Assembly (NCBI RefSeq): GCF_011397635.1
Contig: NC_064756.1
Coordinates: 21,568,907-21,632,906, forward strand
Length of the DNA stretch: 64,000 bases
Direction: 5' to 3'
Source of the DNA: Epinephelus fuscoguttatus
Taxonomy: Eukaryota > Chordata > Actinopteri > Perciformes > Serranidae
Position 1 is the first letter of the stretch; each line of letters opens with the position of its first letter. This document shows, piece after piece, positions 31,132 through 61,963 of the stretch. A program made the position numbers and the translations under genes. A model generated the notes under the pieces. It did not search any database. It was given only the letters and a program-made list of their open reading frames with translations, and was not told the DNA's origin.

Positions 31132-34100
31132 ATGATGCACCTGTTCTGTTTTTCGGCTTCATGGATTTTTCTGCTGCTGGCACAATGTGGACTCCCCTCA
31201 GGTAAGAGCAATAATTATTTTGTTTTTTTACACTATATTTAAAAAATGCTATTTTAACAAGGAAGGTTGACAAACATATTAACTAATAACAGACTTCTAC
31301 ATCCTTCCTGGTATTAATTTATGTGTATAAGAATCATCTGAAGGGAGTGCAGACCTCCCCCTCAGCGAAGAGACTGACTTTGATCAGTGTCCAGAGGGAA
31401 AATACTTCTCCCACCAGCTTTGTCTGGAGTGTCCATCTGGTCATTTGTAAGTCATCAACCACCTCTGAACCTGTATACTCGTACTATGTACACAACGAAA
31501 TACACCAATAAGACCTTAACATAAGGAGACATTTTTGCTCCTCTTAAGGAGATTCAATATATGAAATATGTCACTACTACTGAGAGATTTAACTGTAACA
31601 CATATATATAATAAATGGACATATTTCTGTTTTCTAGTTGTCCTGGCAGTGTATCTGCACCTCATAGATGTCCAGCAGGAACATTCAACCTCTACACAGG
31701 GAAAAGCAGCATCAGTGCCTGCAAGGTAAGAGACAGCTGTGGATTAAAACCCATCATCATATGTCAAAGTTTTTTTTTTCTGCCCTCCTTTGAAAGCCAA
31801 AAAAATTGCATCTTGCACTTGATAGTTTTTCTAGCAGTAGATATAAATTAAAGACCTTTTTTCACAGCAATCATTTTGACTTGTCATAGCAGGGAAAGCT
31901 AAGGAAGTATTTTATATATTTATTTGTTCAACTAGAAAAATCAGCAACTTAAGTTACAGACAGATAACACAGAAAACAAAACACAGAATAAAAATGTGCA
32001 GCTCTAAAACATGCAATATAATCACAAAATAAAATTACTACAAAGAAAAGCCAAAAAGTGTGTTAATGTATACTAGAAGTGAACCATAAAAACACAAGAA
32101 AGGGCACTACACATGCTTACAAAGACCAACTAAGACACACTATGACACTGACATATAGAAGATTGTGTACAAAAATGCTGCAACAGTGCTTTGAAACAGC
32201 CGAGAGGAACCAAAGACTGCAGCTCAGCTTGCAGAAAATCCCACATATAAGGAACTGCATACCGAAATGCACGCTTGCTAAACTTTGTAAGTACCAGCAG
32301 TTACTGAAATGAAATTGATAAATAGTTGAATCTGTGATTGACAAGTCAAAATGTTTGCTGTGTATATTGACTTTTTTCTCATCATGTGTTTCTAAATCCG
32401 AAATACTTCACATATTGTCTTTGTTCTGTATGTTGTAGCCTTGTTTTCCAGGTCTGATCAGCTCAGAGGACAGAGCGGACTGCAGGCTGTGTCCTGCAGG
32501 TTTCTCATGTGATCCACCCAATGGGACCCTGTCTTTATGCCCCCCAGGACAATATTCTCCCGAGGGTGCCCTACAGTGTCTCACCTGCCCTGTAGATTCT
32601 ATCTGCACCTCTGGATTTCCTGTTAAAGTAACTATTACAGCATACTATTTCAATTCAAATCCTTCGTCCTGTTGTATCTGAGAGAGAAGAACCGGTAGTA
32701 AATGGTTTGTAAAGTGTGCTCTAAAAATTGGAATTAATCTAAGTCGTATGCTTTTTCTCCTTGCTCCTTTATTCATCTCTTATATGTGCTTAAAGTGTGG
32801 ACCTGGCAAGGAGCCCAACGTAAATCACACTGTGTGTAATGACTGTCCCCCGGGCTCCTACTCCACCGTGTGTACTATTCAGTGTGTGCAGTGTCCAGCA
32901 GGTAGTGCACTAATATTGATCTAATCTTAATTTGTGATTTAAAAGGTTCCACAGCCTTAGAAATGTGTCTTCTGCCTGTTACAGGAAGTTACTGTCCAGA
33001 TAGTGGGATGTCACAGCCGCTCCCCTGTCCTCCCAGTTGGTCTTCCACACCTGGGCAGACTCACTGCCGTAGCTGCAATGATACGTCTTTGCTGTGTGGG
33101 GGAGCTGCGGCCCCCCGCTGGAGCCAGCCAGTCCACAGGTCCAGTCCAATCACCTGTCGACCAGGAACTTACAAAGACACGAGGGACGAGTCAGCATGTG
33201 TGGTCTGTCCAACAGGTCAGTGTTTATCACTGCGTACTGACATTTATGTTACAGTTTCCATTCCTCCTAGAGGAAGCCTAAAATGTATTTGTACACGTTT
33301 TTCTTGGCTCCAGGTTATTACTGTGTGGGAGGTGTAGCTCTACCATGTCCTGCAGGGACTTTTGGTCTTAAAGAAGGTTTGCAGAGGCTGAGAGACTGCA
33401 CAATCTGTCCTGCAGGTAAAGACTGATAGTGCCAAACCTTCTAAATGGATTCTTTTCACAGCGTTAACTTTGGCTTGTCGAGGCAGGACAAACAAGGGTG
33501 TAAATAATAACATTGACAATGACCTGATTTCAATAAGTGTTCCAGTGCACCATGTCAGCGAGTGAGTGAGCAAGAACAATATCAGCAGAACTGGCTCACC
33601 TAAATGGAACAGAGCCATCACTGATGTTATAAAATCCACCTGTGCATTTCCTGCTTTGACACATTAAAATGTCTGCCATGTGCGTATGTGTGTAACAGAA
33701 GGTATACTTATACACTTATTTACTCAGTAACAGTTTCCAGGCCAATTTTACTCAACTAGTTGTTTTGCATGACTTTACCATACATACATACATACATATC
33801 CTGTAAGAAAAACAAAAATCATTCTTATGAACTTGTCTATAAATACATTTCTCTAGGGTTTTACTGTCTGGAAGGCAGCTCACGAAGACCCACCTCCCAG
33901 TTCCTGTGTCCGCAAGGCTATTACTGTGAAGAGGGCACCGCCACCCCTCATGGGTCACCTTGCCCTGCTGGCACAGCGGGGGAACAACTGGGTCAGACAA
34001 GTAGGGCAGCCTGCAAGAGATGCAGAGAAGGACGCTTCTGTCCTGCAGGTAAGTCTTAGCACTAATACACTGACATCAATGGAGCAACAAAATACTGAAA

Positions 34101-34298
34101 AATAGGTGTCACAGTAGGTAACTATAGCTATACTTGAAGGCAGAACAAAGTATGTGATGCATATGTGTGTGCATGCGTGTGTGACAGGCTCATCTGGTCC
34201 TGGTTTGCCCTGTGCTCGTGGGAGATACTGTCCTGCTGGCAGCTTGGAAGAAGTCATATGCCCCCGAGGCACCTTCACCCCCCATCAAGGAGCAATAA
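31132..34298 (+). CDS. Giant gene exons 1-9 (residues 1-401)
   Basis: Exons: 31132-31201, 31332-31446, 31638-31725, 32439-32627, 32796-32901, 32985-33215, 33314-33415, 33857-34048 and 34188-34298. Exon 1 is the leader. Exon 2 has a short acidic non-repeat segment ([16 protein letters not shown]) before the first CPEGKYF module; an in-frame acceptor 21 nt later (31353) could shorten it. Exon 4 (PVDSICTSG) and exon 6 ([10 protein letters not shown]) carry less regular modules. Exons 6-9 are symmetric phase 1-1, starting on the glycine of a G-x-Y-C or similar module. Confidence 0.9.
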
Positions 34299-37200
34299 GT
34301 GAATTTATAAGCCTCATAATGACTGTTTTATACTCACCACTTATTCAGTAATATTTCAGTCTCACAGTTATTGATTTCTCCCCCCTGCATACTGAGTACG
34401 AGGCTCTGTCTTGGGTGCTTTAGTGAAATTATTATCTGAGAAAAGCCCTGCAGTCCCTCAGCAGCTCAGCTTACACCAGTGTGGTGCTATAGCAGCCTAT
34501 CATAGCAAAACTCTGTAATTATATAAAGATATAGGTGTTGTTTCACTCCCATGATGAACCAGGATATGTGGACGAGAAATTGCAACAGATGGATGCCAAG
34601 AGGGCAAAGAGAGAGAGTGTTTAATTTAGCAATGAAAAAACACAACTGTTGGTGGCAAGCTGAAGCTGTGAGTCCAGTAAAAAAATAAGGGATGACTGTT
34701 AAGGGAAATCCAACAATGTGCTACATTAACAGGGCCTATAAAATAAGGGGTTGATTGCAAATATATTAAAAGATATCCTAATAAAGTCGACCAGCAGCTT
34801 GTTGTAAACCTAAATTAATCTTGTAACTATTCCCTCCAGGTGTGAAGGACTGTCTCAAATGTCCGGCTGGTTTTTACTGTCCTGAGGGGACAAGCGACCC
34901 TGTGCCCTGTCCACCAGGCTCCTTTAACCCCTTAGAGGGTCAGGATGAGTTGGCCGATTGCAGGGAGTGCTATGCAGGGAAGGCCTGCACACAGGTGGCT
35001 CTGAGAGCCCCAGATGTGGACTGCATGCAAGGGTGAGTAACCTCTACAGATTCAAGATAAGGTTTCCTGTGAAGCATGTTCCAGTGATACAATAAACTTG
35101 TGTTCTTTAGTACTGCATGTCTGATTTGAAGGAGTAAAAACTTGCCACTTTGTTGCCTTTGCCTGAATCCGATAAGGTTTGTGTGTCCGCCTGGTTCCTC
35201 AAAACCCAACGCTCCGACCAGTGCCTGCCCACCGGGGACACTGAGCAATCGCACTGACCTCACTGACCGCTCACAGTGTCAGCGGTGCCCAGCTCGATAC
35301 GCCTGTCTTCGAGGTGCCATTTGTCTTTCACACATATGCATGTTCACTTGGCCTTTAAAAGTACTATTTAATATTTTATAGTTTCAGAAGAAATGAATGT
35401 AGTCACCTATGCCAAATTGTGCTAGACTTAAAGTGTGCATTAAGAATAGAATATACAAACTTCTGAGCTTACTTAACTACTAGAAAAATTAAATTAACAA
35501 CTGCCTCATCCATGATGATAAATTCTTTGCAAGTTTTCCCACATTAATGCTTCTATTATTTATCCTTTATCAGGCACTGGTGGTATCCAGAGACCTCCTC
35601 TCTCCTGCTTTGCGGGGCATTATTGCCCCCCCGGCACTATGTTCCCCACCCAGTATAAATGTCCTGTGGGGACATGGAGTGGTCACAGTGGATTGGAGGC
35701 TGAAAGTGAGTGCCGGCCATGCCCACAGGGCTGGTACTGTTTGGCTGGATCTGGAGCTCCGTCAGGTCGATGCAGCTCTGGACACTACTGTCCTGAAGGT
35801 ACAGCTGAGCGTGACATAATATAGGTATAATCTAAATTAAATTAATAAATGTGTTTACTGCTGTAGTTTAAAGATCTAACACACAAAAGTATCTTTAAAT
35901 GAATTATGTTTTGCTTTTAAAAATACAGCTTTCTGTATGAAATCGATTTCATAAAATAAGATGTGATTTCTCCTCTAGAGCTGTAATTGTGAGTCATTCA
36001 TGTGGATATAACTATTTCGATGTTGCATCACCAGGGACTGCATATGGCACCCAGTTCCCTTGCCCTGCAGGCACCTTCAGCATCCAAATAGGTAACAGAT
36101 ACAGAGAAGACTGCCTGATTTGCCCTAAAGGCTCATTCTGTCAAAAAGGCACCTCCAAACCTTCACCCTGCCCACCGTAAGCAGCCTATGTGCTTTGGAC
36201 GGATGCTATATGGGTTAAAATGAAGGATTAAGCTGATGTAATAAGTATGATTTAGTATATCCACTCTGTCCTGTCTTTCTCCAGCTCCACATTTCGCCAT
36301 CTGAAAGGAGGTCGGAGGCTGGAGGACTGCTCCGCTTGCCCTGCTGGCTATTTTTGTCCCCACTCAGCCACTGTCAACCCCAGAGTGTGCGGAGCAGGCA
36401 GCTACTCTGTAAGGCCCTATCTATAACAGAGTCCACTGTGACTGGCCAAGTGACTGAACCAGTGGAAACCAGAGCTGGTCTATTAGTCTCGTCCCTCCAT
36501 GAACTGTTCTGATTGTCCTATTTTTAGATTAGCATTTTCCGCCCACAGTGATCATCTTAGATTACTCACCACGTCTGTACATCTGTAAATGTCAGCAAGA
36601 GGAGCAGTTAAAGTCAAATTTTATTATAGTTCATCTTCTGCTCTCAATATTGAAGAAATATCAGTGTGCTATTCCAGCATCTTGCGAGTTCGATCGTACT
36701 CTCCCTTGTGTTTTCAGTCCGTATTTTGCTCTGTCCCTCCCCCATATGTGTTGATATCTTTAACTTCAACTCTGAATCTTTCTTCACGTTCTCTTGTGTG
36801 TAGGATGAGGGCTCTGTGGAGTGTTCTCCATGCCTGCAGGGCCACTACTGCAGTAATGAGACCACTAGCGAGGAAGCCATGTTAAGCATCATGGTGTGCC
36901 CCCCAGGCTTTCTCTGCTCCCAGGGTTTGGCTCGAGACCCCCAGCGCTCAGCCACCCTCTGTCCTCGAGGCTTCTACTGCCCTGGAGGAGGCATTGTGAG
37001 TGAAAGAGCGATGTCTACAGCAGGGGATTTATTGTTTTTTAATTAATATGTCTGATTTTCAAATGTCTGGAGCATTACACTACCTACAAATGTTATTCTC
37101 CTCATAGGATCCCAACCCTGTACCGTGCCCCAATGGTACGTACAGTGAAATTCCTGGTCTGCGTGATGCCAGTGAGTGTGTCCAGTGTCCGCAGGGGAAG

Positions 37201-40200
37201 TACTGTTACTCCCAGGAGCCTCATCTGCAGCCTATTACCAGGCCTGTAAGACACCGAATGAATTAGATATACAGTACTCAAGATTCAATAGAGTGTCCTA
37301 TTACAATTTTCTCTCCCTAATCAATTTTATCATGGAGTTAGGATTGCACTTCCACCATAAATGACACAGTTATTATGTATGCTGTGATATTTCAGACAGG
37401 TGTGTGTCCTCATGGGCACTATTGCCCCGCAGGGACTGGCTACCCGTACACCTACCCCTGTCAGGCTGGCCAATACAGGAACAACACACTTGGTCACAGT
37501 GGAGAGGCATGTGTTTCATGTCCATCCAGGCATTTCTGCGACAGACTGGGAACTGACATGCCTTTAGTCTGCCCTCAGGTAGGAATATCCAGCATTTTGC
37601 ATGTGTGAGACAGTGTAACCTGCCTCTAAATGTGCACTCTGCAACTCTAATCCAATATACTTTTTGTCAAATTGAGCAAATATATCCTCAAGGTCCCCTC
37701 GCTGTCTATTCTGTGCGTGCGCTGAAAAAAATCTGATCTTCATACACGGCTCTGGCTCTGTAAACAGCAAACAAAAGTGGCTTGGACAGAGTTACACAAC
37801 ACTATTTCTCTGTGCTCGTGCACAGGACAGGGGAAAGGCCGTGGATGTATAAAGAGAAAGGCAGTGGGATGAGAGGGATGGTGAAACAGAACTTCTGAAG
37901 GAGCACTGATCTGATGGGAGGGGTGTATTTGTTTTTTTGTTGAGTTCAGATATCAACAATCTTTCTCCAGAGTGGCTGACTCCACCTTGAAGTGCCAACG
38001 TGCTATGTCTCTCTGTCTGTCACTCTATTTTAGGGCTTTTACTGTCCGGACGGCACTTCTACTCCTGAGCCTTGTCCTGAAGGAACCTACAGCTCACGAT
38101 CAGCTCTCAGTGATGGGTCTCAGTGCTCCCCTTGTGGCGGAGGCCGGTACTGCACCGGTGTGGGACTCTCAGAGCCCTCTGGAAGCTGCAAGGAGCGCTT
38201 CTACTGTCGAGAGGGAGCCAAGTCTGCAGTACGAAAATGCTGTTTAAATCATTTATGAAATAGTAGTTGCCAGTCTTTAATGCTTTATTCTTGTCTTTAT
38301 ACTTGACTATTTCTATAAATGACTTAACTACAGTTTTTTTCTCATTACATGTATGTACTATGACAATGTCCAGGCTCCTGCAGATGGGCCGACAGGAGGT
38401 TTGTGTCCAGTAGGAAGTTACTGTCCTCCAGCTTCGTCCTCTCCCCTCCCTTGCCCCCCTGGCACCTTCAGCAACAGCTCTGGCCTCAGCAGACATGAGG
38501 AGTGTGTCAGCTGTCCACCAGGGTAACGCCACCCATATTCACTTGCTTTACTATCTCATGACATGATTATGTGATATGCAGCCCCACACAGCAGTTGCAC
38601 CCGTGGAGTTCTGACAACATCACTGCAGATTTGTAAAAGAAAATCTGCCGAATCCATTTGGGTCTGATGATGTGATCAATATGTTTCTCTTCTTGTCAGT
38701 TTGTATTGTTCAGGTTCCAACAACACCTCACCTTCAGGTCCTTGCTTTCCTGGTTTCTACTGTACCGGCGGCTCAGCTTCGCCTGTTCAGAATGAAGCAG
38801 AGGAGGGTTATTACACCCTGGAGGGGGCAGCCAGGCCACAGCCATGTCCTCTTGGCACTTTCCAGCCGGTAGGAAGTAATGCATACAGAACTCTGAGTGC
38901 TGTTACACTGAAAGTGTCCTGTTAAAGTTAGATAATGAGATAAAAAAAAAAAAAAAAGAAATCAAGGTTATTCCCTTGTCTGTAAATCCTCCACAGCATC
39001 GAGGTGCACAGTCATGTGTGGAGTGTCAGGGAGGCAGACTGTGTAACCGGACACGCTTGTCCCAGCCAGCGCTGTGTCCCACAGGACACTACTGTCCTCC
39101 GGGGTCCTCTGTTGCTCGACCCTGTCCTCCAGTCAGTATCTGTGTGTTAGCATGTGTTAAGTGTGGTGTTTGTGTGTGAATGTGGGTGCGTCTATTTTGC
39201 TCCTTACCCAGCTTTCTTCTCATCTCTGTCTTCTTAGTCAGTCATGTTTGCTGTATCTCGGTCTGCTGCACTTAAAGGAATGCTTCACCCACAAAATGAT
39301 CATTTGCATATCAATTAGTCATGCATATTGATTCACTGATTGATTGGGGATCATGTTTAAGGAAGCAAAACTGTATCCACACATCTGTTAATAAACTCTC
39401 ACACAACTTGTGCAGTATAATCCTGGTCTCATTTATCCAGTCATATAAATGACATGGATGCTTCACACACCTCAGCACAGAAGATCTATACAATCAGCAC
39501 AGTTGCAAGTTGGGCGACTATTTCCCCTTCTGTTCCTGAGATATGACCCTGAGTAATGGCCAGGAAAGTGTTTTATGCGGAACATTATGATGTCACAGTG
39601 AAGCTGACCTTTGACCTTTTGTATATAAATGTCATCACTTCATTATTGTATTCTATTAAGCATTTGTGTGAAGTTTTGTCATAATTAGCATATGAATTTT
39701 TGAGTTATGGCCAAAAACACATTTTGTGAGGCGACACTGACCTTGACCTTTGACCCCAAAATTCTAATCAGTTTATTCTTTAGTGCAAGTGGATTTTCGC
39801 GTCAAGTTTAAAGAAATTCCATATGGACTATATGTACGTAGGCATAAAAAAAAACAAACAAATCTTGCTGGGATCTAGAGGGCATATATATCTTAGGTTA
39901 CACATAATTCATATGCAAATGATCATTTTGTGAGTGAGGTATTCCTTTAAGCTTCATGCACCTTTCATTTCAACTGATATGACTGATATTGTAAAATTAT
40001 ACTGTCTAATTATTCAGGGCTCTTACTCTGACCAGCCTGGTGGCGACGCTGTGCAGCACTGTCGTCCATGCGAGGCTGGTTGGTACTGCAGCCGAGCCGG
40101 TCTCTCTAAGCCTCAGGGTCTCTGTGACCCGGGACACTACTGCACCTCTGGAGCCTCCACTGCCTCTCCAGTAAGACGTGATGATTAATGACTTTGATAA

Positions 40201-43200
40201 CTTGGCTTCCAGCAGCTTATCTGAGGAAGAACTGCTGTCTTAGTAAGAAGTAGTAGTATGGAATTGGAAGAGAAATGTAATTACAGAAAGGCATTTTAAG
40301 AAGTAGTTTTAAACACTTGGTACACACAGTATTACAGAACATAACTACTCTTACTGCAGTCTCCTTTACTAGATGTAGAGTGCCTCTGCCTAAGTTGTGC
40401 ATAGAGAGTGAGAGAATTAATAAAATTAAGTGTTAAAAGGAATTTAATTGACTACTATGTTTTCTATTTTGTCTTACCAAACTAATTTTCTGTTCACTCC
40501 ATAGATGTTTCAAATAAATGTAACAAGAAACCAGACCTGCCTTTCATATTTACCATGTTGATCTCTGAGTGATATACAATGAGAGAAGTGTTTGACATCT
40601 TGTCTGCTATGTGCTTGTTGATTATTTTTGCTTATAAAATGGTTTAGCTCAAGTGAGAGCTTGAATAGAAAAGCTGGAAATAAGCTGGTCTTTAAAATGA
40701 ATATTTCTCTTCCCTCTCTGAAATAAAGCTGTGCAGCTGATTTGATGGCAGCTATTAATTTCCCACACACTTTGACTGCTAAAGTGTTTTCTGTCATTTG
40801 ATATGCATATGAATCTAGAGGCATGTGAAGTTCAGGTTTGCATTAGGCAAATAAATAATGTTTTTCAGCAGTGTTTTTTGGATAAGCTGCTGATAGTGCG
40901 TGGGAAATGAGTGACAGCTACCAAATCAAACTGCCCACAGCTTTTAACTTTTAAAGTTCTAACTATAACTGGAAGAGAAAAATGATCAAACTTTATCATA
41001 TTCTGATGATTACGCCGATATTCCCACAGGTGGCTGTGGCCTCTGGCGGTGTATGTCCTGCAGGGTATGTCTGTCCACATGGGACTATGTACCCCCAGCA
41101 GCACCCGTGCCCTGTGGGGACCTGGAGCAGCACTGTGGGAGCCCAAAACCTTTCATCATGCTGGCCCTGCCCTCCAGGACTCTACTGCAACAGTACTGGA
41201 CTCAGCCAGCCCTCAGGAATCTGTGATGCAGGTATGGAAATTAATTATCCAGTACAACAGGGTGTGAGAAGCAATTTGATGTTTCAAAACATACGTCACA
41301 TGAAAAAAAAGTACAGAAGTCAGTGCTTAATAACATGTAGGCATTTGAGATGAAGTGTTTTTTATATTTGTCCTCTGACCATTTTATGGGTAGGTGAAGC
41401 TGCTTGTCCTTCTTTCTTACTTTATGTTCATAGTTTTTATATATATATATATTTTGATTTATAGGCTATTACTGTTCAGGAGGAGCTGCGTCTTCAGTGC
41501 CCTCAGATGGTGTGACTGGAGACATTTGTCCAGTTGGACAGTACTGTCCCATGGGCTCAGCTTCTCCTGTCCTCTGCCCTGATGGGACGTACTCGAACAC
41601 TACAGGTATAGAAAATAGAACTGCACGACATATCAAGTACAGTGATACCCTCTTGTAGTGATCATGTGTGTACAGATCAAATTAATTACAATAGGTTTTT
41701 TTTATGTCAGAATTATCATGCATATGCTACCACTTAACATCTGTTATTCTCTTTGCATGGGAGGCGAACTGGTGAGGGTCTACTAAAATGTAAAGTTAAG
41801 ATGTATCCACTGCACCTGACAGATTAGAGCACATGACTCTGACTAGGGTGCAGAGAGGCGGAGGAGGAAGGGCAGATAACAGCCATGCAGGGGGAGACTT
41901 TAAGATCACTGTGACAAAGCTCAGGAAGCTGATGGAGCTTCTGGGGGAACAATGCCCTCAGAAGCTCCATCAGCTACGCTGACACAGAAGGGCTCTACCA
42001 GAGACTACTGTCCAACACCACTGATGGTCTCAGTGGGGATCTGGCAGACCTGGAGTGTTGGCGCTAAATGTTCAGCCAAATCTTCATCACCCCTAAAGAA
42101 GCCTAAGACTCTCCTGGAGCTTGTGTGGGAGGCCCACCAGGATGTCACACTCTTGGAAACAAAAATCTCCCTCGGCCTCTCTTTCTGCCAACCTCTTGTA
42201 AAGGAAATTGAGTCATGTGGGAATGTGGTGGGGTCTGCAGAGGATGAGGGCAAGGACGGTGCTGGTTGGATCGAGGGTGCCGCTATCGTGCTGTCTGTTG
42301 TGTGTGTCGTCCTGGTGAGGGCGTTTAACGACTGGTCCAGAAAGAAGCAGTTCCAGGGTCTACGGAGTTGGATCGAACAATAATAGAAGTTCACTGTTGT
42401 GTGTAATGGGAATGTCATCCAGATCCCTGGAGCTGACATGGTGGTGGGGGACATGGCCCTGGTCAAATACAGGGACCTGCTGTCAGCTGATGGTATTTTG
42501 GTTCAAGGCAACAATCTCAAGATAGATGAGAGCTGTCTTACAGGAAAATCTGACCACGTACGCAAGTCTGTGGTTAAGGACCCTATGCTGCTGTCAGGTA
42601 CCCATGTGGTGGAGTGCTCAGACAGGATGCTGGTGGCAGCTGTGGATGTCAACTCACAGATGGGCATCATCTTTACCCTGCTGTGTGCTGGAGAGGTGGT
42701 GGAAGATGGGGAGGAGTAGAAAGGAAAACAACCTGATGGAGCTGTGGGGAACAATCAGAACAAAGCCAAGAAGCAGAACGGGGGTGTTGCCCCTGACCAG
42801 TGCAGAAGGGGGTTATGTAAGGACAGAGAGAAGATGACCAACGTTTCAATGACAGAGAGGTGTTGCATTTGTTGTTGAAGGTCGCACGTGGTTGCCAAAG
42901 TGTGCTCCAGTCTACATCCAGTACTCAGAGTCAGTGTGCTGGTGGTATCTGTCCCAGAAGGTTTACCTCTTGCTGTCGCCATCTCTCTGGCTTACTCTGT
43001 CAAGAAACCAACAACCTTGTACACCACCTGGATGTGTGCGAGACCATTGGCAATGCCACGGCCATCTGCTCTGACAAGACTGGCACCCTCACCACCAACT
43101 GCATGACTGTGGTGCAGACTTACATCAGTGACATGCACCACAGTGTGATCCAAGACAAATGCCCATATGTAGCCCACCCACTCAAGTCCAATTATGTCAC

Positions 43201-52200: not shown

Positions 52201-53331
52201 GTAGTTGCCTGTTTCATCAAGACATGTGTATTTGACACATTCTTTGTTCTGCTCCAACCCAGTTTCCATTCTTTCACACTGTACTGGTGTCTCTTGTCAC
52301 CTTGACAGGCTATTGGTGCCCGCCTGGTCAGACTGTGCCTACAGCTCTGCCATGTCCTCAAGGTCACTTTTGCCCACAGGGTAGTGCAGCTCCAGAACCC
52401 TGTCCATCAGGAACCTATCAGGACAGAGAGAAACAGGCAGCTTGCACTGTCTGTGAGGCAGGTAGGAGCCCCGTTTACTCTAGCATAGCATATTTAGTCC
52501 TTTTCTTTTTTAAACACTTGTTCAGCCTTGTGCCATTTCTGTGTTGCTAAACAGGATGTAATGAAAACAGCTCTTAACCCCCCCCCCCCCAGCAAGTGTT
52601 TTATTTATCAAGGTTGACAGCTTGTTCACATGCATCTGTTCCATTTATTATACTGCTATTTGTAAGCTGGTCAAAAGAACTATTCTATAAATATATCAAG
52701 TCCTCAGTTCTTTCACACACTGGCAGTGCTAATTTAAAGCTATGCATTTCTCTTCTTCCAAGGTTACTACTGTGATTCGACACCAACCAATGTCTCTTTT
52801 CTGAGGCCTTGCCCTAAAGGACACTACTGCCCTGCAGGTACAGCCCTGCCCAACCAACATCCCTGCCCCATAGGCTCCTTCAACCCGAGACAGCGCACTA
52901 CCAGCCTCACAGGCTGCATGCCATGTGTTGCTGGACGGTACTGTCCTTCTGTGGGACTGTCAGAGCCAGCAGGTGGGAGAGAGTATTCTTCATTTGTTTT
53001 CCTTTTCTTTTTCCAAACACACTTTTTTGGACAGTAATTTTGTCATGAATCAGTTCAGGAAGGACCCAAATGCAGAGCAATAGGCAGGTTTGAGGTTTAA
53101 TAAAAGCAAGCTCTAATAAAGCTGATAAAAAACATCCAAAACAGGCAGGTAACTGAAAGTCCAAATGGAAGAAGAACCAAAACTAAAACAGAACACCAAC
53201 CAGGATAATACAATGAACTGGGGTTAAAAAAAAATCCAAACTGAATAAGCATGAAACAGAGCAGGAAACAACAGCAAGAACATGGGGATGAATGCAGACA
53301 AACTGACAAGGAACAAAGGGAAACACACGGG

Positions 53332-53375
<44 letters not shown>

Positions 53376-56300
53376 ACTAATCACAAGAACGAGATACAGC
53401 TGGAGTCGGAGGACAGAGTCTTAAGGAGGGAAATGGGGATTGGCTGACAACAGGGGTGTGGTGGGGAACACCAGGGTGGAGCAAACAAGACTAATACAGA
53501 ACAGGTGTGAAGGGAAGACTCTGGGAACAGGGAGGGACTCACAAGATTGGTGGAAGATTGGTGTGACAGAAAACAGGCGGGAAAACACACAATGACTGGA
53601 AGTAAAACCAGACATGACACGTGAGGAGAGAATCTACAAAATTAAACAGGAAACAGATGAATGAATAACATAAAAGAAGGAAAAACACAAACAGAAACCT
53701 CAAAACAAAGTCCACACGATACTGGAATATAAACAAAAACCCAGCATCATGACAAATTTGTGTCTCTGTCCCTTACGGTTTTCTGCTTCTTTCTGTACCT
53801 TTGCTTTTCTTTTTTGAGCCCCTTATTTTTGATGAGGCATTTTGTCATAACTAGTGAGGCTGCAGTTTGCTTTACATCTTTACATTAGTGGCACATGTGT
53901 GTTCTTCCCATCTGACTCCTGCTGATGAGAAAATGGTGTGAATTTCGATAGCACCATTTTCACAATAGCAGCACTTCATCACATATTGACGTTTGGGTCA
54001 TGGACTTTCCACGTCCACATACGATGTGCAAGGTACCCTGGGTGAGTTGGTTGTTGACGTTCTTGGACACTGTGTCAATTTCTGCCTGTTACATGCATTG
54101 TCTTCTTTCAAGATACACTTCTGTTTTCACAGGAAATTTAACGTTTACATACAGTCTCTTTCAAAATAAACACACTACATCGGTACAGCACCGCAAATTG
54201 ATTTTTTTTCCTTCAACAACAAACACACGTGGTTAGATTTAGGAAAAAAGAACAGGGTTTGGCTTTAGAATCTTATGGGACACAAATGCAGCTCTCTCAG
54301 GTGAAAGACGAGGTTTGTTGGACCCATACACCACTCCTCCCTCTGCCCAACTCGGACTTTTGCCACCTTAACTTTCATCCTTGTCTCGCTTTGACAGTGA
54401 TATAGATCAGTAAGTAAATTGTTTTACCCATTTAAGGGTCAACCATAGACCTCTGTAGCCTCCCCCCAGGACTTGGGCCAGAGTCTGGGCCAGAGTTTGT
54501 ACACCCCTGACAGAGGCCTGGGCAGCTGGTATTGCTGCATATATGATGATGGAAAAACCATTAATTAAAAAGAAAATATTCAATGATTGTGCCTGATGTG
54601 GAAATTAATATTCAAAATTTTTCATGTATGTCCAAACTGTACTTGAAACAATTTATTGTATTTCCAACAAATGATCTTCCTGGGTCACCTTTTGTTATTC
54701 ATTATGTGTTGTTATAAGCTATTTCAGGGGTTTCTGTATGGTTTGCAATGGGCTTCCCCAGTTTTGAATATTTAAATGTGCAGTTTTTAACACTGGAGCT
54801 GGTAGGTTTGGATTTAATTGTATTTGCCAAGGTTTGAGATATTGCTGTTAAAACCAGATATTGTACTCTTTAGCTTGTGCTGTGGAGCCGAAGCTGTATC
54901 TGATTACTTTGACCCTTTATGTATTGTGATATTTGTCTTTCTACAGGACCATGCAACGCTGGTTATTGGTGCAGAGAGGGAGCATCCTCTCCCAGCCCAC
55001 TTGACGGATTCTCTGGTTCCCTGTGTCCACCTGGTCAATACTGCCCCTCAGGTTACTGGCTCGTCCTCCTTAAATAAACAATCAGCCAGCAGCTGCTTCA
55101 GTGCCACTATAGTTTTAATGCCTGAAATGTATCAAGTTGCAGGGGGTCCACATTTTCCACAAATAGTGGTTTTAATAATAATCATAATCCAACGCTGATG
55201 CAGCTTGTTTTATAGGCTAATGTAACCAAATTTATACTGTGTGAGGCTATTAACATTCTACCCCATTATATTCCAGGGCTACAATGTTTTATTCATGCTA
55301 ATTACCATTTGGTGGCCTATGGGGAGTGCTGACAACATTTATCTCGTAACTTCTGATACAGTTTTCTTCAAATTAATTTGTACACTTGTTCTCTCTGACC
55401 TGGGGCACTGACCCATGCTTTAAAATTGCTACTGTAGGGTAAACTCTGCCTTTCTTTTGGGTAGCTTGATTGTCTCACTTATTTAGTTGCGCTAAACTTC
55501 TGCTTACAGTGGTCACAGTATATTGCATCGATGAACCCAATAACTGCATTGTTCCTGCTATTTTTAGTAGTTTTCTGCATACTCCTCTGTTTACCAGAGT
55601 TGAATTGTGAGTTGGTGTTTGTGATGTCTTCACAGGCACCACAGCTCCCATGGCATGCCCTGAAGGAAGCTGGTCAAACAGCTCAGGCTTGCGTAACCAG
55701 GAGGACTGCAAACCCTGTCTGGGGGGATTTTACTGCGACTCTGCCGGCCTTACTAAACCTAGTGGACCCTGCAGTGGGGGGTACACCAGACTCCAATGAC
55801 CTTAATAAATATTGTCCTTTGTTGTTATATAAAATGTACACAAAATTGTGGTTTCAACCTGCTTTAGCGTTTTCCTGCTCTGATATTTTGTATGCAGATA
55901 TTACTGTGTGAAGGGAGCCATCACTTCCACCCCTACTAATGGAATTACAGGGGGACCTTGTCCTGAGGGTTACTACTGCCCAGAGGGAGCTGTTCAACCT
56001 GTGCCCTGTGATCCGGGGACATATGTTGCTGTTACACATGCTACTCAGTGTGAGCCCTGTGTGCCAGGCTGGTACTGTGTGTCTGGCTCGCTGTACTTAT
56101 GTCCTGCAGGTGTGTGGCTTGCTGTTTTGTGTGCCCTTAAAACCTTAAAAGTATATTGTCAGTTTTATGCTAATGAATTAAATATAAATGATCAAGCAAA
56201 ATATTCACCAAAGAACTGAAACAAACAATGACTCGTGATAAAAGCTTATATATTTTTGAATCCTTCATATTTATGCATTTCCTTGTGTCTGCTCTGCGGC

Positions 56301-59300
56301 CTGCAGGCTTTTACTGCCCTGAAGGGACTGGATTCAACTTGAGAGGCTGTCCAGAGGGAACTTACGGTCCTGATCCTGGCTACTGGTCTGTCACTCAGTG
56401 CAAGCAGTGTGACGGCGGTCATTACTGCTCTTCCAGAAATGGCACAGCTGTCACTGGACCATGTCAGGAAGGATATTACTGCTCATACGGAAACACTTCT
56501 CCACAACCTTTCTCAGAGGCTGCAGGTAAACAAACATCTTTATCATGTACTTTAGGAAATGCAGTATAATATAGTCAGTTAATACCACATTTAGTTAAGT
56601 TGTCAGCCTTGTAATTATCTGAGGCAGTGGTTCTCCATCAGTATTTCTATTTTGAGACGGTTGACAAACAGCAGCGTTGTTCTCTGTGTCTCTCACCAGA
56701 AGAGGGAGGGCCATGTCCTGCTGGTCATTACTGCCCCCAGGCCACCGTCCATCCTCTGCCCTGTCCACGTGGAATGTTCTCTAATCTCACCAAATTAGTC
56801 TCCAAGGTCGCTTTGACTCAGTATCACACTCAAATGTCTCCTTGACCGATGACTGAACGAGTCTTTCTCCTCAAAGTTACAGCACGATGTCATTTTGCTT
56901 GGAAATGTCAAATTTTGTTTAGTAATTTTCCAAACATCCAACCACTAAATATTCTTATAACATTTTGTGATTCATGAGACTCAAATTATATAATCATATG
57001 AATATAAATGCAGACAAAATATGGTATATATTCATTCAGATCGAAGCAACAGCCGGTCATATAACTGGCTTGGCCCTGTTTGTCTTGATTGACCGACCAA
57101 GATTTAATGAAAAGCAACTTCATGAAATAAAATGTTTCACAGTCCTGCTACAGTACACCATCCCTTTACAGTATATCCAGTAACTTACATTGCTTTCTCT
57201 GTCTTTCATTGTGACAGCCAATCGATATCTAATCCCAAATCAATGCTGCAATGGGGCACTCTCTCTTTTTCCATTTTCTCACAGCTCCCCCTCCTCCTCT
57301 CTGTTTCTCACTCTTCCTCCGTCTCTTTTTGTCTCTCTTATTTCCTCTCTTAGGAGGATTGCCAGCCGTGTCTCCCTGGTTACTACTGTGATGCTGCGGG
57401 GCTCTCAGCACCTTCAGGACAATGCTGGGAGGGTTTCTTCTGTCTTGGTGGTTCAGACCGCCCTGACCCTCCTTTGAGAGACAGCCAGGGAGGACCGTGC
57501 CCGAAAGGTGATGAGATCTCTCAGAATCTTTATCTCGTTTATAAAGCATCAAAAGAAGATGCATGAAAAAAAAAAAAAAAACACGGGGATAGTGTAATCA
57601 CGTTGCTACTTTTTATACAGGAAACGGCAGCAAAAAGGTTTGCAAAGCATTATATGGAATACAAAAGAAAATGTGAAGCACACACTTAAATTGAATATTC
57701 ACATAAGCCCAGAGCTAGCTTGGTGGAAAGGTAAATAAAACCTTCTTTCTATTTAATAGGGCTAAACATAAGTAGCTGCTCTGTTGACACTGGAAATCGA
57801 GCTCTGTTCCCTGTGGATGTCTCTGTGTGCATTTGAGTGTGCGTCTCTTCCATGACTCTTGCCTTCACACAACCAGGTTATTACTGTTCTGAGGGCTCTG
57901 TGGCTCCTCAGCAGTGCCCCGCGGGAACCATCAGTACAGAAGATGGCAGAGCCAGTTGCAGCACCTGTCCCCAGGGGTAAACTCGCTTATCAACCGCACA
58001 CAGTCACTTTACACCGTAAACATGTAGACACATATAAGCAAAGTAAGTGAATATACATACAGCACATGTTGAAATTTGCCCCCTGGCTTTGCATACATAA
58101 AGTATATACACACACAGACATGCATATTGATGCCTCATGGCCACCATCAGCAGCCAAGCACTAAATTATTCCATCCTTGTTTTGTCTGGATAGTTTTTAT
58201 TGTCCTGGCAGACGTAATGGCTCCCTGTCGAGGACTTATGAGTGTCCAGTGGGTCATTACTGCCCGTCTGGGACCTGGTCCAAACATCAGTACCCGTGTC
58301 CAGCTGGATCTCTCAACCCCCACACTCGCATGGCACAACCCAAGGACTGCATGCCCTGCCCTCCAGGTCACACTCCATTTACTGCTAATAATCATGAGTT
58401 TCCTTAAGGTCACTTACTTAACTCAGAGTTTAGTGCGACCTTGATTGTAAATGGTAATTAAACACTACATTAACAAAATAAGTGAACTTCAAACAGCAGC
58501 TGTAATCACAAGCAGCAAAATCATCAAACAAATGCAACACCACAGCTGGGATTAATATAATATGCAGTGCTTGTTCTACATTTTCTGTTTTGCAGGGTAA
58601 TTCAGGGTAATTAACCATTCCACTCAGTTTCACTCTTTATTTCCATCAAACTAGGCTCCTTCTGTGCGTCCCCTGGGAAGGGTGTTGCGTCAGGCCAGTG
58701 TGGTGCAGGGTACTACTGCCTCTCTGGGGCCTGGTCGCCCACACCAGAGGATGGAGGGATGACAGGTGACAGATGTCCTGAAGGTCATTACTGTCCCGAG
58801 GGCTCCTCAGCACCACTGCCCTGTCCCGTTGGACACTACAGCAACAAAACCAGAAACAGTTATTTCTCTGACTGCCTGCCTTGTCCTCCAGGTTGGAATG
58901 AATTTACGTTGCGCACATTATAGTTTAATTGTGTCTTTTATCTGCCGGAAGATAAAGCTTTCATTACATAACTTGATTTATTGGGGGATAATCCCTTCAC
59001 ACAGTGTGCGCAGCTGCTCAGCAGTGTTCCCTTTTGTTTTGTAGGTTTCCTGTGTGTCACCAGAGGGCTCTCTTTCCCTTCTCATATATGTCCAGCTGGC
59101 TCTTACTGCCCAGGCAGAGGAAACAGCAGCCTGCAGGCCTCTATACCCTGCTCACCTGGAAACATGTGCCCACCTGGGTCTGATAGACAGGTGCCCTGCA
59201 TGCCGGGGACCTACCAGGATTTACCTGGGCAGGTAATGGGGATGATATGATGATATATCCCACAGTCCCACAGGCAACATGCAGAATGAATGCAATTAGA

Positions 59301-61698
59301 ATAACCTGCAGTAACTGGACTGCAAAATATGTTTAACTATAAAACTGTATCTAAAAGAGCACTATTGACTCACTGTATTAGACCTGTAAATCATGGGTTA
59401 GTTAAGCCTCTCCTGAAAGCATTGTCAACATCTGTGTGCACTGAATATTGTTCATAGTTTCGCTTTTATCATCTCCGACACAAGGATTGAAATGTCTGTT
59501 GATATTCATGAACATCTGTAGTCATAATTTTGTATTTGTACTGTGCAGAAAAGAATTATGTGCGTAATGTACCCCTCCACAGGCAGAGTGTGTTAAATGT
59601 CCAGCAGGATTTTATTGTGCTGGCTCGGTGGATGCTGACACAGGGCATGTGTCTGGTACTCACACTCCCACGCTGTGTCCTAAAGGACACTACTGCCCAC
59701 CAGGTAGGATACGATAGTGCAGCTTTTCTAACACATTCATGACAAATGAAAACTGTTACTAGATCGTGTTATCAGATATATGGGACACAAGTGATGCTGC
59801 AGGCTCAGTGAGGTTGATTAACTGGCTAAAAATGTGTTGTGTTACACACACAACATTGTTGAAAATTGCTCTTGTTTTGTGTGTACTCCTGATTAAGTGG
59901 CTGTAACAGTAAATGGCTTCCCAATTATGCAAATGGCCATTATAGAGCATAATCAAGATAAGGACGGCCTTCACAAACTGTTCTGTGATGTTTAGTCCGG
60001 GACCATCTGTAGATATTATACGCTATTTATCTACAGGAACGCAGGCTGGTGTAGCATTCCCATGCCCAGCTGGTGCCTTCAGCAGGCAGATGGGGTTGTC
60101 CAATAAGTCGGGCTGTGAGCTCTGCCCTCCAGGGAGATATTGCAGTTCCTCTGGACTGGCTGCTCCCACTGGGGCCTGCGCTCCTGGGTAAACATGAGCA
60201 AGCTGAACACATACTTCATCATGTTCACAGATAGACTATAAAAGACATGACACCCTGTTTCTGTTTAATTCTGCCTCTCTGGTCTATAATTAAACCTCCC
60301 TTATGCTCTGTCCTCCTCTGTTTTTCTCATCTATCACTTTCTGCATCCCATATCCCCGTCCTCATTGTCTCTGTCTTCATCATCTTGCTGCCCCTAGTTA
60401 CCTCTGTATCCAAGGTTCTGTTTCTGCCCAGCCAGAGGAGGGCCCAACAGGAGGCCGCTGCTCTGCAGGGTCCTATTGCCCTGAGGGTACCAGTTATATG
60501 GTTCCCTGCCCTGCAGGCACCTTCAGCTCCATAGACGGTGACAGAAAACACTATATAATTACGCATTGTTGGTGACATTTGAACATAATGGACTTTAGTG
60601 TGAAGTATAGTGTGACATTTTGTAATCAGTGAAAGAATTTCCCACCCTCCTTCATCAGAAGACAATTACTGAAAACACTTCAAGTGGAATTATTTCACTT
60701 GACCCAAACTGTCATTTTCATCATTCAGACAAAACATATGAACTGTATTATTGTTGTTCCAGGTGCAGTTTCTGTAGAAGTATGTCAGTCCTGTTTGCCC
60801 GGCCATTACTGCGCTGAGGTTGGCATCTCCTCCCCATCTGGGCTCTGCAACCCAGGCTTCTACTGCCGAGAGGGATCCAGAATGGCCACACCTTTGGGAA
60901 ACACCACAGGTAACAGGCTGATTCTTGTCATGCTTTATGTAGTGTTAAATAAATGCAGGGCAGTATGCACAACTGGTTATTCTGGAAATAGTATTCGTAA
61001 TATAAAAAAGGGTCATCTTCAATGAACTTGAAAAATACTGTGCCGTGCAGCATTTCCTCTCAATGCTCTTCTATTTTTATTTAACATTTCCATGACCTTT
61101 GACTCCACAGTGCGGCAGAGGTCTCCACAGAACATTTACCAATGCCCACTGCTTCATCTCAGTAGTATTTCTCTCCCTGGGATTGAGGAAAATGGCCCTG
61201 GCCTTTTGGTTCACTCACTAACCTAATGAGTAATGACATCCAATAAAGGTCTATTGTTTCAGTTACAGGAGATACCACATCACCATCCCCACTTCCTGGC
61301 GATTCAACCCTGGGTCAGTTCCATGGTGGTGTGTGTCCTGCAGGCCACTATTGTCCTAAAGGGAGTGCAAAGCCAAGGCCCTGTCCTCCAGGTAGAAAAC
61401 CAACACATCCATATAAGTTTCCTTCCATTTCACTGAGTGAGCCATGTGTCGGACCTCTTTCTTTTTATAGCACTGCCTCCAAAGGTAGAATACAGTGCCA
61501 CTAAGCCCCCAGAGATATAATGTAATGGCTCAATGTATCCAGAACTTTAGAGGAGGTTGTAAAACCTAATGGGAGCCCAATAAAACTGTCATAATGGTCA
61601 GCTAGCTACTTAACCAAGTGAAAAAATGGAGCCATCTACAGTGTGCATATATGACACTATTATGCCATGCTATTTCCCTTTCTCCCTTTATATGTGCG

Positions 61699-61750
<52 letters not shown>

Positions 61751-61963
61751 AAGAAGTAGAGTGGAAGTTATTTTTACCCACATGATAATTTGTCTCCTCC
61801 ATGTTAGGCACTTTCTTGGGGAGGTCTGCGGCGGAGTCGGAGGCTGACTGTGAAGCTTGTTACCCAGGTTTTTACTGCCCCTCGTGGGCTCAGACCTCTG
61901 CTGACCTTCTCTGTCCCCTGGGGTGGTACTGTCCAACAGGATCAGTGTCTGGACATCAGCCAG
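31132..61963 (+). CDS. Giant secreted cysteine-rich repeat protein (partial, continues right)
   Basis: Fifty-one consecutive coding exons, all with AG/GT borders and compatible phases, give 7,843 nt (2,614 codons) with no stop. The last ends in phase 1, so the gene continues past the window. It starts [20 protein letters not shown], a clear signal peptide (an ATG one codon later is equally usable). Nearly all the rest is short cysteine-rich modules, C-P-x-G-x-[YF]-C alternating with C-P-x-G-T-[YF]-S and closed by D-C-x-x-C. These resemble the ephrin-receptor-like GCC2/GCC3 repeat, also found in SCUBE and SVEP1 proteins. No EGF, CUB, kinase or membrane segment is seen. A secreted or surface matrix-like role is inferred; I do not recognise a named orthologue. 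Exon coordinates are in the seven block entries below. Confidence 0.92.
34840..36408 (+). CDS. Giant gene exons 10-14 (residues 402-675)
   Basis: Exons: 34840-35032, 35177-35313, 35574-35798, 36035-36176 and 36285-36408. Modules include [31 protein letters not shown] and [11 protein letters not shown]. An upstream AG at 35978 was rejected for exon 13 because it leads into a stop within two codons. Exon 14 ends in phase 0 (GAGSYS), starting a run of phase 0 exons. Confidence 0.9.
36804..41605 (+). CDS. Giant gene exons 15-24 (residues 676-1227)
   Basis: Exons: 36804-36995, 37108-37245, 37396-37578, 38034-38228, 38374-38522, 38700-38868, 38997-39131, 40018-40170, 41030-41231 and 41465-41605. 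Exons 15-18, 21 and 22 are symmetric phase 0, unlike the mostly phase 1 remainder; exon 23 returns to phase 1. Modules such as [23 protein letters not shown] and [17 protein letters not shown] are typical. The intron after exon 21 hosts a transposon relic. Confidence 0.9.
37622..37993. mobile_element. Short inverted-repeat element, family 2, copy 2
   Basis: Matches 9603-9890 at both ends (GCACTCTGCAACTCTAATCC on the left, TGACTCCACCTTGAAG on the right) with a diverged centre. It fills most of the intron between exons 17 and 18 of the giant gene and ends about 40 bp before the exon 18 acceptor. Confidence 0.55.
39272..39950. mobile_element. TTAA-type inverted-repeat element, copy 3 (both ends kept)
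   Basis: A 679 bp element with TTAA at each edge. Its inverted repeats of about 46 bp have few mismatches: the left end reads TTAAAGGAATGCTTCACCCA and the right end, on the minus strand, TTAAAGGAATACCTCACTCA. Inside is a piece (CCTTGACCTTTGACCCC) that I recall as a common fish repeat. Non-coding. It lies in the intron between exons 21 and 22 of the giant gene. Confidence 0.8.
41722..41862. repeat. Left direct repeat flanking the PMCA copy
   Basis: About 140 bp containing TTCTCTTTGCATGGGAGG, ATGACTCTGACTA and GCAGAGAGGC, in the same orientation and order as at 43205-43317. It is about 30 bp longer than the right copy in the middle. Confidence 0.75.
41885..43200 (+). pseudogene. Intronless truncated PMCA (atp2b) copy
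   Basis: An intronless copy of a plasma-membrane Ca2+-ATPase coding region, from near the N-terminus to just past the phosphorylation site. Recognisable in order: [110 protein letters not shown] and [16 protein letters not shown] (the catalytic aspartate is in DKTGT). The frame shifts several times, a stop follows WIEQ, the third-membrane-segment region is lost, and everything after about residue 490 is missing. No poly(A) tail is seen. The missing introns imply an mRNA origin. It lies in the 3.8 kb intron between exons 24 and 25 of the giant gene. Confidence 0.88.
43205..43317. repeat. Right direct repeat flanking the PMCA copy
   Basis: About 113 bp matching 41722-41862 with substitutions and one gap (TAATCTCTTTGCATGGGAGG, then CATATGACTCTGACTA, then GCAGAGAGGCC). 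Far longer than a normal retrocopy target-site duplication. Confidence 0.75.
43318..45443. other. Rest of giant gene intron 24, no gene seen
   Basis: AT-rich intron sequence after the PMCA copy. Open frames of 60-77 codons here have no domain, leader or splice support. The stretch at about 43840-44300 has a repeat-like texture (self-similar CTTCC/GGAAG segments), but I could not define ends. Confidence 0.4.
45444..55051 (+). CDS. Giant gene exons 25-36 (residues 1228-1821)
   Basis: Exons: 45444-45629, 45913-45984, 46123-46249, 46345-46478, 46900-47097, 48821-48970, 49593-49772, 50656-50772, 51397-51546, 52309-52461, 52763-52972 and 54947-55051. Ten of the twelve are symmetric phase 1-1, and exons 27/28 are a 1-2/2-1 pair. 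Exon 31 has an unusual insert ([16 protein letters not shown]) with an N-glycosylation site. Introns here are long because of inserted repeats. Confidence 0.9.
47968..48330 (-). mobile_element. tRNA-derived SINE with L2-like (CATT)n tail
   Basis: Read on the minus strand it begins with a tRNA-like head: A box GTGGTTAGCACT, B box GGTTCGATCCC at 48276-48266. A conserved middle (GTGGGAGGAAGCCGGAGTGC, then GGAGAGAACCC) follows, and it ends in (TGAA)n. An 11 bp duplication, GATTAGAGCTT at 47957-47967 and GATTAGAGTTT at 48331-48341, flanks it. The tail type implies mobilisation by an L2-clade LINE. This is a very common vertebrate/fish SINE type from memory. It sits in the intron between exons 29 and 30. 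Confidence 0.92.
51565..52185. mobile_element. TTAA-type inverted-repeat element, family 1, copy C
   Basis: Same ends as copies A and B: AGGTTCAGTGTGCAGGATTTAG on the left, AGGAACAGTGTGTAGGATTTAG on the right (minus strand). The flanks are TTAG and GCCA rather than intact TTAA. It is the shortest copy (621 bp), with fewer internal repeat units. It begins 18 bp after the exon 33 donor and ends 123 bp before exon 34. Confidence 0.75.
52578..52590. repeat. C homopolymer
   Basis: A run of 13 C, between exons 34 and 35 of the giant gene; prone to sequencing-length error. Confidence 0.9.
53039..53756. mobile_element. 718 bp element with TTTGTCATGA inverted ends
   Basis: Perfect 10 bp inverted ends: TTTGTCATGA at 53039-53048 and TCATGACAAA at 53747-53756. 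The interior is A-rich and non-coding (many AAACAGG, GGAAAC words) with a (TA)n(CA)n tract at 53332-53371. I recall similar sequences as dispersed repeats in fish. The superfamily is not determined. It lies in the 2 kb intron between exons 35 and 36. Confidence 0.7.
53332..53371. repeat. (TA)n(CA)n compound microsatellite
   Basis: About 12 TA then 7 CA units inside the 53039-53756 element. Confidence 0.95.
55636..57507 (+). CDS. Giant gene exons 37-41 (residues 1822-2100)
   Basis: Exons: 55636-55780, 55898-56109, 56307-56525, 56700-56806 and 57354-57507, with phases 1-2, 2-1, 1-1, 1-0, 0-1. The first donor falls in a G-run (GGG|GTACAC). Exon 40 ends at AAG|GTCGCT so that SNLTKLVSK joins [12 protein letters not shown], the expected module join. 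This phase order is repeated exactly by the next five exons. Confidence 0.88.
57877..59703 (+). CDS. Giant gene exons 42-46 (residues 2101-2373)
   Basis: Exons: 57877-57976, 58194-58366, 58655-58891, 59045-59232 and 59583-59703. Phases are again 1-2, 2-1, 1-1, 1-0, 0-1. Modules include [36 protein letters not shown] and [11 protein letters not shown]. Confidence 0.9.
60037..61963 (+). CDS. Giant gene exons 47-51 (residues 2374-2614)
   Basis: Exons: 60037-60187, 60398-60537, 60763-60909, 61263-61391 and 61808-61963. Phases are 1-2, 2-1, then three 1-1. The last exon found ends GSVSGHQP plus one base before GTACAG, so coding continues beyond this window. No following exon is visible up to position 64000, meaning the next intron is over 2 kb. 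Confidence 0.88.
61703..61747. repeat. (GA)n microsatellite
   Basis: A pure GA run of about 22 units, 60 bp upstream of the exon 51 acceptor of the giant gene. The Leu/Ser repeat frame on the other strand is an artefact. Confidence 0.97.

Follow-up and report, generated by a model that had tools for sequence, protein, structure and literature searches.

The window analysed here is a stretch of 64,000 nucleotides from Epinephelus fuscoguttatus (assembly GCF_011397635.1, contig NC_064756.1, positions 21,568,907 to 21,632,906). From 31,132 to 61,963 its + strand carries a chain of small exons for a giant cysteine-rich repeat protein, with other genes lying on the − strand to the left. A sequence-only reading had described this chain as 51 in-phase exons of 2,614 codons beginning with a signal peptide, and had proposed an undescribed extracellular protein. 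Our splice reconstruction, which supports one long gene of many small exons, recovered 51 exons that together comprise 7,807 nt and 2,602 codons (a difference of 12) and encode 274 cysteines. Most likely, the window covers the 5′ half of a single, very large animal gene.

The exons were predicted by a splice-aware dynamic programme that was given the earlier reader's ATG, the interval 31-64 kb, donor and acceptor matrices from general knowledge, and codon scores learned first from segments that bear the motif and then from the gene itself. The exon number varies with the intron penalty (90 at 6, 65 at 9, 56 at 12 and 53 at 15). The working chain is that obtained at a penalty of 12 (56 exons), less five exons at 41.9-44.0 kb, which were dropped because they fall in an ATPase-like fragment and because phase is kept across the gap when their neighbours are joined directly. 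This fragment, within intron 24 (41,700-45,300, + strand), is a broken piece of a P-type ATPase (PF00122, E 2.2e-17) that resembles a plasma-membrane calcium pump; it is interrupted by stops and changes of frame and may be a retrocopy. Two exons were trimmed by hand, to 35,177-35,313 and 61,269-61,391, where the new edges restore the module. The exons, with predicted edges taken from the splice chain unless stated otherwise, are as follows.

31132..31201, + strand, exon 1, ATG and signal peptide; hydrophobic peak from residue 4
31344..31446, + strand, exon 2; weak acceptor, score 0.3
31638..31725, + strand, exon 3, modules
32439..32627, + strand, exon 4, modules
32796..32901, + strand, exon 5, modules; weak acceptor, 0.9
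32985..33215, + strand, exon 6, modules
33314..33415, + strand, exon 7, modules
33857..34048, + strand, exon 8, modules
34188..34298, + strand, exon 9, modules
34840..35032, + strand, exon 10, modules
35177..35313, + strand, exon 11, modules; hand-chosen acceptor, score 0.4 (the programme's lies at 35,132, score 2.7)
35574..35798, + strand, exon 12, modules
36035..36176, + strand, exon 13, modules
36285..36408, + strand, exon 14, modules
36804..36995, + strand, exon 15, modules
37108..37245, + strand, exon 16, modules
37396..37578, + strand, exon 17, modules
38034..38228, + strand, exon 18, modules
38374..38522, + strand, exon 19, modules
38700..38868, + strand, exon 20, modules
38997..39131, + strand, exon 21, modules
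40018..40170, + strand, exon 22, modules
41030..41231, + strand, exon 23, modules
41465..41605, + strand, exon 24, modules
45444..45629, + strand, exon 25, modules; preceded by a 3.8 kb intron
45913..45984, + strand, exon 26, modules
46123..46249, + strand, exon 27, modules
46345..46478, + strand, exon 28, modules
46900..47097, + strand, exon 29, modules
48821..48970, + strand, exon 30, modules
49593..49772, + strand, exon 31, modules
50656..50772, + strand, exon 32, modules
51397..51546, + strand, exon 33, modules
52309..52461, + strand, exon 34, modules
52763..52972, + strand, exon 35, modules
54947..55051, + strand, exon 36, modules
55636..55780, + strand, exon 37, modules
55898..56109, + strand, exon 38, modules
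56307..56525, + strand, exon 39, modules
56700..56806, + strand, exon 40, modules
57354..57507, + strand, exon 41, modules
57877..57976, + strand, exon 42, modules
58212..58366, + strand, exon 43, modules
58655..58891, + strand, exon 44, about one 78-residue super-repeat; piece used for the structure model
59045..59232, + strand, exon 45, modules
59583..59703, + strand, exon 46, modules
60037..60187, + strand, exon 47, modules
60398..60537, + strand, exon 48, modules
60763..60909, + strand, exon 49, modules
61269..61391, + strand, exon 50, modules; hand-chosen donor (the programme's lies at 61,484)
61808..61963, + strand, exon 51, last in the window; in-phase join to a predicted exon 5.1 kb beyond, outside the window

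As the programme forbids in-frame stops, a stop-free chain proves little alone. When run unconstrained on the real strand, the programme returned a score of 1007.9 with 55 exons (the ATPase stretch included) and 60 CPxGx[YFW][CS] motifs, against scores of 133.5 for the reverse complement, 69.6 (+) and 83.4 (−) for the left 31 kb, and 8.9-29.1 for ten dinucleotide shuffles; the motif count was zero in all 13 of these controls. Because the score was trained on the gene and is biased towards it, we give more weight to the motif count, which is free of such bias, and to 1,000 protein shuffles. The 82 CxxGx[YFWVL]C sites found among the 2,602 residues lie far above these shuffles, which average 0.7 sites and never exceed 5. 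The cysteine-module array described earlier is confirmed. A raw six-frame scan gave 49 motif hits on the + strand, from 32,538 to 61,912, and one on the − strand; the + strand hits change frame, as split exons would. Of the 50 predicted introns in the window, whose median length is 271.5 nt, 30 are in phase 1. The proposed signal peptide agrees with a hydrophobic peak (Kyte-Doolittle value 1.71) from residue 4, which is signal-peptide-like by hydropathy.

The gene end had been placed outside the window, and the predicted gene indeed extends about 37 kb further. We examined 140 kb of downstream sequence, numbered on an extended scale on which window base 1 is 1. No coding signal is present from 61,964 to 66,900 (0.6); the next predicted exon, at 67,056, has a good acceptor (5.0) and continues the phase of exon 51. 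The module motif runs on along the same strand to 89.0 kb; from 89.5 kb there follow an Eph-like closing cysteine segment, two further cysteine-bearing exons and then module-free exons. In all, the region past the window contributes 31 further array exons and 23 predicted exons of other content. The resulting composite of 105 predicted exons (16,245 nt) is a single frame of 5,414 residues whose stop comes only at the end (100,917), and its array comprises 4,273 residues with 452 cysteines and 131 CxxGx[YFWVL]C sites. The last array exon (end 88,984) joins in phase 1 to the exon that finishes the Eph-like cysteine segment (CFPCGSSSTSPA joined to GSSSCTC..). The composite was picked by hand, and weak exons offered by the programme were omitted (e.g. 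64,037-64,085, 69,551-69,634, 72,670-72,769 and 83,600-83,674).

Beyond the array, the juxtamembrane region holds RPRKKR/D, the sole R-x-[KR]-R site of the composite protein, 155 residues before a predicted transmembrane helix. This helix (ILSLLLVVVVVLTTTVLVL), at ~92.8 kb, has a hydropathy of 3.03 and is the sole strong hydrophobic segment besides the signal peptide. Behind it the net charge is +7, and the helix and this charge therefore predict a type I topology, in which signal peptide, one helix and positive inside are read from hydropathy and charge on the predicted splice model. A tail of 769 residues with 19 cysteines follows the helix. The sequence-only reading had found no partner domain because the window edge cuts the gene; with the helix and long tail among the 23 exons beyond the array, this claim is not supported, and the same two features point away from an extracellular protein and towards a membrane receptor or tether.

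The C-terminal 11.6 kb has a coding score of 242.1; the opposite strand scores 67.7, and none of 20 shuffles exceeds 37.4. All but one of 16 control stretches score 46.8-137.7; the exception, with a spa17-like gene on its strand, reaches 229.6. The C-terminal region codes at gene level, and what ties it to the same gene is its strand, its phase and the joins. For the window chain and the C-terminal region alike, chance reading frames were ruled out by the control comparisons. Pfam searches with C-terminal pieces (18 of the 23 exons) gave a best E of 0.0097, below the cut-off of the family concerned, and raw + strand frames from part of the region gave nothing at E≤0.5 and E≤0.01. In sequence searches of the PDB, C-terminal parts reached a best E of 0.64; in the genome, one juxtamembrane query and one tail exon each match only themselves. 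A 112-residue tail exon (96,716-97,051, extended scale) has no Pfam match, no convincing PDB match and only itself as a match in the genome, and would serve well as an anchor for finding orthologues; for this purpose the juxtamembrane block (exons 86-89 of the composite) and the tail block (exons 98-102) are better suited than the modules. By eye, the segment at 91,989-92,705 (extended scale), after the furin-type site, looks like a cupredoxin-type β-sandwich, the cupredoxin fold being that of ephrins.

For an analysis of the repeats, we assembled 22 core modules, comprising 19 of the 20 found by pattern (one was left out) and three added by hand. They share ten invariant columns, most of them demanded by the selection pattern, and are 37-53% identical to the first. 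The cysteine spacing shows recurrences at 6 and 78 residues, and the repeat unit seems to be a super-repeat of ~78 residues. Cysteine codons in the window gene are mixed (157 TGT, 117 TGC), the module glycine uses all four codons, and Tandem Repeats Finder lists no tandem repeat across the window exons. The repeats are therefore old and held at the protein level, and the lack of a tandem repeat over the exons rules out recent tandem duplication. A genome-wide search (1.05 Gb assembly, 26 contigs) reported 45 module matches, all inside this locus; with module matches so confined, the gene is most likely single-copy.

The modules had been assigned to the GCC2/GCC3 type, with a HMMER search with PF07699 suggested as a check. 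A relationship to this family is supported, and the CxxGx[aromatic] spacing with repeated cysteine pairs, a feature of PF07699 module proteins, is present in the window protein. The fit is loose. PF07699 matches all 22 chosen modules at E≤1. Of five array pieces, two of which predate the trimming of the two exons, two exceed the family cut-off of 23.1 bits (40.5 and 42.9) but three fall below it (18.3, 18.6 and 17.9). A PF07699 search of the genome (100 candidates scored) does not list the locus, its 16 listed matches lying on contigs 2, 7, 8, 14, 22 and 23 in exons that we guess to be those of SCUBE and SVEP1. No hit at E≤0.1 was obtained with phmmer for 1,409 array residues against the PDB. 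A profile of the 22 modules matches 17 PDB sequences, the best from the tumour necrosis factor (TNF) receptor superfamily (TNFRSF21 and TNFRSF9, E 3.4e-6); two of the 17, chains of a viral accessory protein (E 0.03-0.04), were taken for chance. When viral contigs were queried with one exon, nine stretches fit a pattern and none was confirmed. Sixteen exon pieces were aligned, in two of which the first codon was read as M; 14 were kept for the fold, several were re-cut and two were left out. The module model shows a likeness, at modest Z, to the thyroglobulin hub, ELAPOR1, the mastigoneme protein MST1 and the cysteine-rich domains of Eph receptors.

Comparison with these systems shows what is shared and what is not. 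MST1 of the Chlamydomonas mastigoneme (PDB 8tx1, 8wa2, 9b4h) carries nine immunoglobulin (Ig)-like domains and a poly-proline helix and polymerises; excerpts of its description give a domain of 678 residues that is 26 nm long, contains 26 disulphides, pairs antiparallel and builds a filament (PMC11015965). In contrast, the protein described here shows no Ig family in the Pfam listings of array or C-terminal pieces, and its longest proline run of 2 and at most 8 prolines per 20 residues in the composite indicate no poly-proline helix. It also has a transmembrane helix and tail, and its array is about six times longer. For ELAPOR1, solved chains have 767-814 residues; in the present protein no Pfam family reaches its cut-off in the juxtamembrane or tail pieces, and ELAPOR-type Pfam domains are absent at E≤1 from the array pieces and reach 16.1 bits, against a cut-off of 33.2, in one module. 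Eph receptors share the likeness of the cysteine-rich domain but differ in their hallmarks, as ephrin-binding, fn3, tyrosine kinase and SAM domains find no match at E≤1 in the array or at E≤10 in the 18 C-terminal exons. SCUBE1-3 and SVEP1 are likewise vertebrate proteins with PF07699 modules. They carry EGF, CUB, sushi, VWA or pentraxin domains, none of which appears at these same thresholds in the array pieces or the 18 exons. SCUBE proteins are spoken of in adhesion in part of one source (PMC3464141).

Apicomplexan CRMPs are also large and combine ephrin-receptor-like modules with membrane segments; excerpts of their description give nine transmembrane domains and a Kringle domain in CRMPA, and term them apicomplexan-specific (PMC9815656). 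The present protein, by comparison, has its one strong hydrophobic segment besides the signal peptide, the next best reaching 1.59. The TNF receptor superfamily supplies the best profile match in the PDB. Its members have a few modules and carry a death domain or TRAF motifs. TNFR_c6 matches 14 of the 22 modules weakly (best E 3.6e-4; 16.8 bits against a cut-off of 29.4 in one module) and none of the array pieces at E≤1, and no death domain is found in the 18 C-terminal exons.

The sequence anatomy, the continuous predicted frame and the confinement of module matches to the locus are observed. From these we consider it probable that an intact, single-copy gene of ~69.8 kb (contig positions 21,600,038-21,669,823) encodes a giant type I membrane protein of ~5,400 residues, with the window as its 5′ half. 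Rather than a pure secreted array, the product would most likely be a receptor or tether held in the membrane. It would consist, in order, of a signal peptide, ~4,250 residues of modules with a period of ~78, the Eph-like cysteine segment that closes them, a juxtamembrane region with a proprotein-convertase-type site and a cupredoxin-like domain, one transmembrane helix and a cytoplasmic tail of ~770 residues.

Several points weigh against this interpretation. The 105-exon composite was selected by hand from a home-made model, with all edges predicted from DNA; the small exons 55, 91, 92, 96, 97 and 103 are doubtful, so that details of the tail may be wrong, and the 5.3 kb from 68.0 to 73.3 kb are crossed via a 33-nt exon and a module-poor exon. 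As one control scored nearly as high as the C-terminal region, a high score shows coding and not membership of the same gene. A segment of the tail is fairly hydrophobic (1.59) and may be a second membrane segment. The structure prediction for exon 44 is a modest model (mean predicted local distance difference test score 69.9, predicted template modelling score 0.55); its resemblances all have Z<8 and possibly reflect just a common arrangement, and Foldseek found no match to the module model at E≤0.001. The cupredoxin reading finds no match in Pfam or the PDB. The lack of internal stops is partly due to construction, which makes the rival explanations slightly more probable.

Chief among these is a secreted extracellular-matrix protein of modules alone, with the transmembrane and tail exons belonging to a second, downstream gene. 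Gene predictors often fuse two neighbours on the same strand, the PF07699 proteins SCUBE and SVEP1 are secreted, and no partner domain exceeds its Pfam cut-off within the window. We nevertheless think this explanation unlikely, given the phase 1 join from the last array exon to the exon of the Eph-like segment and the continuation of the frame from there to one stop. It is quite improbable that the array represents several adjacent genes fused by prediction and in truth split at 41.6-45.4, 62.0-67.1 and 68.0-73.3 kb: these stretches are long relative to the median window intron, but the exons flanking them share phase 1 and keep the module pattern. That the array is a decaying pseudogene in this species is very improbable indeed, since the chain scores far above controls with no forced frameshifts and keeps its cysteine pattern throughout, even though the broken insert in intron 24 means that the region tolerates insertions.

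If the gene encodes a single membrane-anchored protein, its modules may fold as a disulphide ladder like those of MST1, ELAPOR1 and Eph cysteine-rich domains, and the ectodomain would therefore be a stiff rod. Scaled from MST1 (26 nm per 678 residues) rather than measured, the rod would be ~160 nm long for 4,273 residues. Lying 155 residues before the helix, RPRKKR/D could allow furin to free the rod from its anchor or to leave the parts joined; we guess that cleavage of the ectodomain in the secretory pathway would give a two-part receptor or a releasable rod. It is again a guess that the rod links the cell to a matrix, a coat or a neighbour while the tail provides the coupling to the inside. 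The protein is best read as a long tether or coat receptor on the cell surface whose tail serves coupling within the cell, a reading that does not distinguish adhesion, sensing and shedding. More tentatively, and with considerable doubt, the protein may represent a new vertebrate receptor class, furin-processed, whose ~160 nm rod works as a stiff outer filament in the manner of the algal mastigoneme, possibly on sperm or cilia, and whose cytoplasmic tail and juxtamembrane domain belong to no described family.

To our knowledge this is the longest array of this module type in vertebrates, and the long arrays that we know to have been studied as structures are mainly those of protists (mastigonemes and apicomplexan CRMPs). 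The suggestion of an undescribed vertebrate protein is supported to the extent that searches of open-licence literature, judged under the terms used by listings and excerpts, turned up no vertebrate protein described as carrying such an array. No protein of this kind appears in the excerpted portions of a domain table (PMC4224354), of reports on choanoflagellate receptors (PMC12716839), Eph receptors (PMC6485061, PMC6993872) and thyroglobulin, SVEP1 and SCUBE (PMC3464141), or of PMC11015965 and PMC9815656. An automatic 'uncharacterized' database entry for the gene or its orthologues is likely to exist. A single-copy animal gene whose ~105 predicted exons join more than 100 modules to an orphan tail and a membrane anchor would add a new giant member to the cell-surface proteins of vertebrates. 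Its two orphan parts, juxtamembrane region and tail, merit attention more than the array, and the exon map and domain boundaries make expression, cleavage and knockout testable in fish.

Several genes lie to the left of the giant gene on the − strand. One has two Ig exons and is presumably hepacam; another carries an IQ motif (PF00612) and is taken to be neurogranin. A RIIa-domain gene (PF02197; 23,489-26,808) stands beside an acidic open frame of 628 codons. We take it to be spa17, the acidic frame being much longer than mammalian SPA17; spa17 adjacency alone is no evidence of a role in sperm. Adjoining the start of the giant gene is a small gene for a one-Ig membrane receptor (28,414-30,442, − strand; PF00047 just under cut-off) whose tail resembles an immunoreceptor tyrosine-based inhibitory motif (VPYADI). 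On the right, the next gene seen has a V-set domain and presumably encodes a sodium-channel β subunit. The gene order resembles that of human 11q24, and the locus therefore looks stable. Two short stretches downstream of the giant gene (102,510-102,845 and 128,445-128,651, extended scale) are, by their look, presumably pieces of Tc1/mariner-type transposases.
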